Shown piece by piece: positions 39,782 to 42,362 of a stretch of DNA of 64,000 nucleotides. How positions within the stretch are numbered: position 1 is the first letter of the stretch; each line of letters starts with the position of its first letter. The notes beneath the pieces are model-generated. The model made no database searches. It worked only from the letters and a program-made list of their open reading frames with translations, and was not told the origin of the DNA. The DNA lies in the NCBI GenBank assembly GCA_919901855.1, contig CAKKQC010000042.1, positions 1 through 64,000 on the forward strand. Direction: 5' to 3'. Position numbers and translations under genes: made by a program. The DNA is from a bacterium. GTDB taxonomy: Bacteria > Oederibacteriota > CAKKQC01.

Positions 39782-39782
39782 G

Positions 39783-39864
39783 GGGGACGTACGTGAAATT
39801 GTGAAATTCCCCCCCTCGCGGCCGACCACCTGAGGGGGAATTTCACAATTTCACGTACGTCCCC
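39783..39864. repeat. Perfect 31-bp inverted repeat (REP-like palindrome)
   Basis: Arms 39783-39813 and 39834-39864 are perfectly complementary over 31 bases, with a 20-base GC-rich spacer. Each arm starts GGGGACGTACGTGAAATT and includes a GAAATT repeat, so the arms are far more AT-rich than the surroundings. The repeat begins two bases after the SMR stop codon. Such GGGGAC...GTCCCC palindromes resemble REP elements mobilised by Y1 (RAYT) transposases. As RNA it would form a very stable hairpin; there is no U-run directly after it, so simple intrinsic termination is doubtful. Confidence 0.9.
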
Positions 39865-39914
39865 TAGAGAACAAACCCACGATCTGATAGACTTTTTCAA
39901 GCAGGAGGAGCACC

Positions 39915-42362
39915 ATCTACGACCGATTCGCAGAACGCGCCCGGAAAGCCATCGCCTATGCCCGCGAGGAGGCGATCCGGCTTGACCACGACTACATCGG
40001 GACCGAGCACATCCTCCTGGGCATCATCCGGGAGGGCAACGGGGTAGCGGTCGCCGTGCTCGAGAACCTCAACGTCGACCTGGCCAAGCTCCGGCACGAG
40101 GTCGAGAAGCTCGTAGCCACGACCGGCGGAACCCTTACCCTGGGCAAGGTCGAGTTCTCGATGACGGCCAAGAAGGTGCTCGAGCTGGCGCAGGAAGAGG
40201 CCCAGAACTTCGGGCACAACTACATCGACACCGAGCACATCCTCCTGGGGCTGATCCGGGAGGGCGAGGGCATCGCCGCCCGGGTCCTGAACAGCTTCGG
40301 CGTGACCCTGACGCGCGCCCGCGAGGTCACGATCGGCCTGCTCGGCGGCACTGTCCAACACCTCGGCGCCGGCCAGGGCCCCAAGGCCAAGACGACGGCG
40401 CTCGACACGTTCGGGCGCGACCTCACCCACCTGGCGCGGGACGGGAAGCTCGACCCCGTCATCGGCCGGGAGGACGAGATCGAGCGCGTGATCCAGGTCC
40501 TGTCCCGCCGCACGAAGAACAACCCCGTCCTCATCGGGGAGGCCGGCGTGGGCAAGACCGCGATCGTCGAGGGGCTCGCCCAGAACATCGTGGCCGGGAG
40601 CGTCCCCGAGCCCCTGCTCAACAAGCGGGTGGTGACCCTGGACCTCGGCGCGATCGTGGCGGGCACCAAGTACCGGGGCGAGTTCGAGGAGCGGCTGAAG
40701 GCCATCATGAACGAGATCCGGCACGCCTCCAGCCAGATCATCCTCTTCATCGACGAGCTCCATACCCTCGTCGGCGCCGGAGCGGCCGAAGGCGCGATCG
40801 ACGCCTCGAACATGCTCAAGCCCGCGCTTTCGCGCGGCGAGCTCCAGTGCATCGGCGCGACGACCCTCGAGGAGTACCGGAAATACATCGAGAAGGACGG
40901 CGCGATCGAGCGGCGGTTCCAGCCCATCACCGTCGACCCGCCGAGCGTCGAGGAGACCGTGAGCATCCTCAAGGGGCTCCAGAGCCGGTACGAGAAGCAC
41001 CACAAGGTGAAGTACACGGACGAGGCGCTCAAGCAGGCCTCCGTGCTCTCGGACCGCTACATCTCGGGCCGGTTCCTTCCGGACAAGGCCATCGACCTCA
41101 TCGACGAGGCGGGCGCGCGGGCGCGGCTCCAGACCACGATCGTGCCGCAGGAGCTCAAGGACTTCGAGCGCCAGATCGAGGAAGTCACGCGGGAGAAGGA
41201 GCAGGCGATCCGGATGCAGGAGTTCGAGCGGGCAGCCAAGCTCCGGGACGTCATCCGCGAGCTGCGGGACACGGCCGACGCCCGGCGGAAGGCCTGGGAC
41301 GAGACCCGCCGCCGCACGGAGGTCACGGTCGACGAGGAGGCCATCGCCTACATCGTCTCCAAGTGGACCGGCATCCCGGCGTTCAAGCTCGAGGAGAAGG
41401 AATCCACGAAGCTCCTCCGCATGGAGGAGGACCTCCACCGGCGCCTCGTGGGGCAGGAAGAGGCCGTCTCCGCCGTCTCCCGCGCCATCCGGCGGTCCCG
41501 GGCCGGCGTGAGCAACGCCAAGAAGCCGATCGGGTCCTTCATCTTCCTTGGCCCGACCGGCGTGGGCAAGACCGAGCTCGCCCGCGCGCTCGCCGAGTTC
41601 CTCTTCGAGACCGAGGACGCCCTCATCCGCGTCGACATGTCCGAGTACATGGAGAAGTTCGCGATCAGCCGGCTCGTGGGCGCGCCCCCGGGGTACATCG
41701 GCCACGACGAGGGGGGCCAGCTCTCGGAGAAGGTCCGGCGCCGCCCCTACTCCGTCGTCCTCTTCGACGAGATCGAGAAGGCCCACCCGGACGTCTTCAA
41801 CCTCTTGCTCCAGATCCTCGAGGACGGGCGGCTGACGGACGCCCACGGGCGCACGATCGATTTCAAGAACACGGTCCTGATCATGACGTCGAACGTGGGG
41901 TCCAAGGAAGCCGAGAAGGGCGGACTGGGATTCCAGCGCGACACCACCCAGTCCCACTACGAGGTACTGCGGGACCGCCTCCTCAACGAGCTCAAGCACG
42001 CGTTCAACCCCGAGTTCCTGAACCGCGTCGACGAGGTCATCGTCTTCCGCCAGCTCGAGCGCGAACAGATCCGGGCCATCGTCGACATCATGATGCGGCA
42101 GGTTTCCTTGAGGCTCAAGGACAAGTCCATCACGCTCGAGCTCGACGACGCGTCGAAGGAGTTCCTGATGGAGAAGGGCTGGAGCCCGGCCTTCGGCGCC
42201 CGGCCCCTGCGCCGCGCCATCCAGAAATACATCGAGGATGCGATGGCCGACGAGCTCCTCCGCGGGAGGATCCCCGAGGGTGCGCGCGTCGGCGTGACCC
42301 GGGGCGAGGGCATCGATACCCTCGCCTTCACCCCACTGCCCCAGCCCGCGCTCGTTCCATGA
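39915..42362 (+). CDS. clpC: ATP-dependent Clp protease ATP-binding subunit ClpC, apparent ATC start
   Basis: 815 residues, cytoplasmic AAA+ unfoldase that feeds ClpP. Two Clp_N repeats (each with IGTEHILLG or IDTEHILLG), first Walker A GEAGVGKT near residue 210, a UVR coiled region near 415-450, and second Walker A GPTGVGKT near 546. The conserved N-terminus ([19 protein letters not shown]) begins directly after ATC at 39915, preceded by AGGAGGAG with ideal spacing. Upstream codons back to a TAG at 39888 contain no ATG, GTG or TTG. The first canonical in-frame start, GTG at 40056, would delete 47 conserved residues. Either AUC initiates here or a base error changed ATG. Preceded by the 31-bp palindrome. 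Confidence 0.95.

Follow-up and report, generated by a model that had tools for sequence, protein, structure and literature searches.

The clpC gene of an Oederibacteriota genome opens at ATC: a probable near-cognate start, rare and confined to one lineage, or else an error in one base

Introduction

From which codon is the clpC gene of this bacterium read? In the window analyzed here, a stretch of 64,000 nucleotides from a contig of an Oederibacteriota genome (GenBank assembly GCA_919901855.1, contig CAKKQC010000042.1), the conserved N-terminus of ClpC begins exactly at an ATC. Should this base be correct, AUC would serve as the start of a highly conserved chaperone gene and would join the few AUC starts outside infC. 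Standard gene callers would shorten the protein by 47 residues, since only ATG, GTG and TTG are allowed by them. A literature search for clpC genes with a non-canonical start gave no paper. Our analysis indicates that, rather than a conserved control device, the ATC is probably a near-cognate start, rare and specific to this lineage, or else an error in a single base.

Results

The start region of clpC (Table 1) agrees to the base with what the initial annotation had described: the frame opens at ATC, six bases past AGGAGG, with a TAG 27 nt upstream. Reading of the sequence also confirmed its claim that there is no ATG, GTG or TTG in frame between this TAG and the GTG at 40056. The spacer between AGGAGG and ATC is AGCACC (39909-39914), and the codons directly 3' of the ATC are TAC GAC CGA TTC GCA GAA CGC. 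A start located 5' of the ATC was ruled out, as the TAG leaves eight intervening codons (ACT TTT TCA AGC AGG AGG AGC ACC), none of them canonical. The whole open frame that contains clpC spans 39891-42362. A codon-usage survey covered 1.97 Mb of the genome and called 1054 genes, of which 871 had a score above 40. AGGAGG was found 4-10 nt before 69 of the 871 genes (7.9%). The clpC site is strong and not unique, the enrichment being modest. RNA folding around the clpC start gave an unremarkable structure.

Table 1. Features of the clpC start region (positions in the window) and other genes of this genome (G000) with coding sequence 5' of the first canonical start (positions in contigs C1, C6 and C10). 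G001 is the relative from the same family.
Feature	Position	Strand	Basis
Palindrome of 84 nt, 32-bp stem, REP/MITE-like, just 5' of the clpC leader	39782..39865	.	Fold -64 kcal/mol, z -12
In-frame TAG, bars any upstream clpC start; would also open a putative extended -10 element, TGATAGACT	39888..39890	+	Direct reading; -10 part putative
AGGAGG Shine-Dalgarno sequence	39903..39908	+	Direct reading; 6-nt spacer to ATC
ATC at the ClpC initiator codon position	39915..39917	+	Aligned with ATG in G001 and in all other ClpC loci of the phylum examined
clpC coding sequence from ATC, 815 codons plus stop	39915..42362	+	Open frame; Pfam; 90% identical to G001 ClpC
GTG, first canonical in-frame clpC start; starting there would remove 47 residues, with them the first Clp_N repeat	40056..40058	+	Sequence reading; Pfam
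Gene coding 5' of its first canonical start	C1:169292-170315	-	Codon-usage survey
Gene coding 5' of its first canonical start	C10:10860-13173	-	Codon-usage survey
Gene coding 5' of its first canonical start	C6:181800-184311	+	Codon-usage survey
Gene coding 5' of its first canonical start	C1:298104-300279	+	Codon-usage survey

The product has all the features of a ClpC, that is, two Clp_N repeats, two AAA modules, a UVR motif and a D2-small C-terminal domain; on the frame opened at ATC, Pfam found Clp_N twice, AAA, AAA_lid_9, UVR, AAA_2 and ClpB_D2-small. The NCBIfam equivalog cut-offs for ClpB, ClpA and ClpV were not reached by it. There is one clpC in the genome; the other match, on contig C59, is to a further Clp ATPase that is less closely related, with 49% identity. 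Of the two Clp_N stretches found by Pfam when the protein is started at ATC, one is left when it is started at the GTG.

We have compared this gene with that of G001, the only relative of the same family in the comparison, which belongs to a different genus and whose ClpC locus (L004) is truncated where the contig ends. Its ClpC aligns from codon 1 of the ATC-started frame, and codons 2-47 differ by 14 synonymous changes and a single replacement. Over 694 aligned codons, 405 were identical, 219 carried synonymous and 70 replacement differences, and the shared part has no frame break. Judged by this pattern, codons 2-47 are truly coding. The mostly synonymous differences, together with the absence of a frame break, indicate that for most of its history the gene has been translated with this N-terminus. 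That the ATC, rather than GTG 40056, has to be the start of the assembled gene is well supported by codon evolution, by the domain loss that the GTG would entail and by the position of the Shine-Dalgarno sequence. The GTG was tried as a start and rejected on codon evolution and the lost Clp_N repeat. Of a frameshift from an upstream ATG there was no sign either, as the clpC leader can be aligned with the sequence that immediately precedes the ATG in G001. No canonical start fits the conserved N-terminus and coding extends up to the ATC. An AUC start of clpC is likely. Beyond clpC, a wider comparison with G001 yielded 12 loosely matched pairs, too small a number for statistics.

The codon itself is different in the relatives. 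G001 has ATG at the matching position, and so do all the other ClpC loci of the phylum that we examined, the ATC aligning exactly with their Met1. When the ClpC start motif was searched in 45 genomes of the phylum, the ATH form appeared in this genome only and the ATG form in 31, while the remainder matched neither. A scan of a contig collection gave 80 ClpC loci at a greater distance, with identities of about 62% or less (the nearest named ones include Omnitrophota, at about 62%), and ATC stood at the aligned position in none of these; the two entries with ATC in the scan were loci of the present genome itself. Distant loci without a start at the aligned codon were usually explained by an upstream canonical start or by a difference at the N-terminus. 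The same junction was looked for in viral contigs and gave no match. By these alignments the ATC of clpC is not conserved in relatives.

The short leader that precedes the gene is homologous in the two genomes, reading ATCTGTTACGCTTTTTGCAGGGGAAACAGG ATG in G001 and ATCTGATAGACTTTTTCAAGCAGGAGGAGCACC ATC here, with the segment ATCTGNTANNCTTTTT common to both. As the genes located upstream differ between this genome and G001, the leader marks the border of the clpC unit. A scan of the clpC region for consensus promoters and terminators gave no match; the putative extended -10 element TGATAGACT might be part of a promoter. The palindrome located just before the leader has the ends GGGGACGT...ACGTCCCC. 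Palindromes with the same ends and different cores are found elsewhere in the genome (C21:55092-55150 and C7:113556-113615), and the inner arm occurs again at C10:104440, which suggests that they form a REP/MITE-like family.

Discussion

The explanation that we favor, with a probability of about 60%, is that the ATC is a real and recent replacement of an ancestral ATG, specific to this lineage, and that AUC would still serve to initiate full-length ClpC. Pairing of this codon with the initiator fMet-tRNA would be limited to the first two positions, with a mismatch at position three. Being optimally spaced, the AGGAGG would partly offset the weakness of the codon, and the output of ClpC would be lower than from AUG, as reporter experiments with near-cognate starts lead one to expect (PMC13068326). 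A systematic start-codon study, as it is reported in that paper, has ATC as a functional but weak start in Escherichia coli. Suboptimal starts have been linked to stronger Shine-Dalgarno sites (PMC5622118), and a very extensive ribosome binding site has been discussed for the non-canonical start of sigR (PMC5472188). In the case of clpC, the Shine-Dalgarno site is stronger than that of G001, whose leader reads GCAGGGGAAACAGG ATG.

The main rival explanation, a base error or a minority variant carried into the metagenome consensus, over a true ATG and an otherwise ordinary clpC, is in our opinion rather unlikely. The call at 39917 comes from a single consensus assembly, a draft of 91 contigs with 93% completeness, and the presence of ATG in the sole family relative and in every ClpC start seen in the phylum speaks for an error. 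The initial annotation had proposed that an ATG at this codon in close relatives would make the ATC a base error or a strain-specific mutation. ATG was found indeed, in a relative that belongs to a different genus, so that the comparison, in this weaker form, points to a base error or a lineage-specific change. The strong palindrome 49 nt upstream of the ATC could lower the local coverage and raise the chance of an error at the clpC start. However, the 1.97 Mb surveyed yielded no more than about six genes, clpC among them, that are clearly coding 5' of their first canonical start, and most are explained by stop-start overlaps. Broken gene starts or frames are thus uncommon in the assembly, a mild argument against an error. 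Since clpC ranks second in the survey for such sequence, the coding found upstream of its canonical start does not appear to be due to chance. Errors would probably strike few of the start codons in the entire genome, whereas real non-canonical starts are found in at most a few of every thousand genes (PMC13068326). Near-cognate starts also seem to be tolerated in this genome, because other genes, notably lpxA, have no canonical start before their coding N-terminus, and this argues mildly for a real AUC.

The base could also be correct and the start truly lost, with clpC barely translated, or made only as an N-truncated form from GTG 40056, at an early stage of gene loss in this strain. The intact frame of 815 codons, under strong purifying selection and free of decay elsewhere in the gene, makes this distinctly unlikely, and the Shine-Dalgarno site that still precedes the ATC is strong and correctly spaced. 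On the other side, near-cognate starts are weaker than AUG, the changes of ATG to ATA or ATT in rsbW of Listeria lower the translation of RsbW (PMC13068326), and the palindrome inserted just upstream of the clpC leader may have altered the promoter region.

It had also been proposed that clpC is kept low on purpose or depends on the fidelity of initiation factor 3 (IF3). We found no support for this: the codon lacks conservation, and an in-frame ATG is present at infC of this genome and of G001 (C21:159119-159680 and L123). A dedicated control of this kind, tying the synthesis of ClpC to IF3 as for infC or for sigR (GTC) in Streptomyces, has a precedent in the repression by IF3 of the non-canonical start of a stress gene (PMC5472188), and clpC shares with sigR the strong Shine-Dalgarno site. 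A start regulated by IF3 would be expected to keep its non-canonical codon within the lineage, and in clpC the ATC is not kept even within the family, G001 having ATG. With an in-frame ATG at infC in this family, the classic IF3 feedback is not evident either, and we regard the whole proposal as very improbable. The IF3 of this genome is intact by Pfam. In most of the other relatives of the phylum that were examined, the infC leaders offer ATT or ATC, and several have only these near the expected start.

The infC gene of E. coli starts with ATT. With the ATC of the Streptomyces gene, it resembles clpC in having an AUU or AUC start in a conserved gene; the infC codon, unlike that of clpC, is established and serves the autoregulation of IF3, whereas the clpC ATC is found in one genome only. 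The initial annotation had described AUC initiation as known for very few genes and named the IF3 gene of Myxococcus. The rarity stands, but this gene is not alone, since infC of Streptomyces starts with AUC (PMC5472188) and the ATC start of rnhC in Listeria is fixed and has been confirmed experimentally (PMC13068326). The sigR gene of Streptomyces, which is stress-related, has like clpC a non-canonical start behind an extended Shine-Dalgarno sequence (PMC5472188). Its GTC is conserved across Streptomyces, with repression by IF3 shown, in contrast to the clpC ATC, which is not conserved. The closest analog is rsbW of Listeria, in which ATG was lost to ATA or ATT with residual translation and the change was selected (PMC13068326): there too the loss of ATG is lineage-specific, although rsbW and rnhC are different genes and have experimental support. 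If real, the clpC case would be another example of the established rare AUC starts, and on present evidence it reveals no new control mechanism.

In lpxA (L165, C21:66793-67666) there is no ATG, GTG or TTG before the conserved N-terminus, and a CTG at the stop of fabZ fits as the start (CTGNCTGA). This CTG begins eight bases before the fabZ stop ends, an arrangement that is the same in G001 (L166), where an in-frame TTG is also found seven codons upstream of the CTG. It is a candidate for a conserved CUG start with translational coupling, and likelier as a conserved case than clpC. A relaxed start-codon regime for the family as a whole, with ATG at infC, a conserved CUG at lpxA, several AUA or CUG at stop-start overlaps and an isolated AUC behind a strong Shine-Dalgarno sequence at clpC, appears unlikely to us. 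As in lpxA, the starts of the four other genes in Table 1 were assigned by position. The likely ones are two ATA overlapping TAG (ATAG), one CTG overlapping TGA (CTGA) and one CTG located a few bases past the upstream stop. Two of these genes have homologues in G001 for which canonical starts are available.
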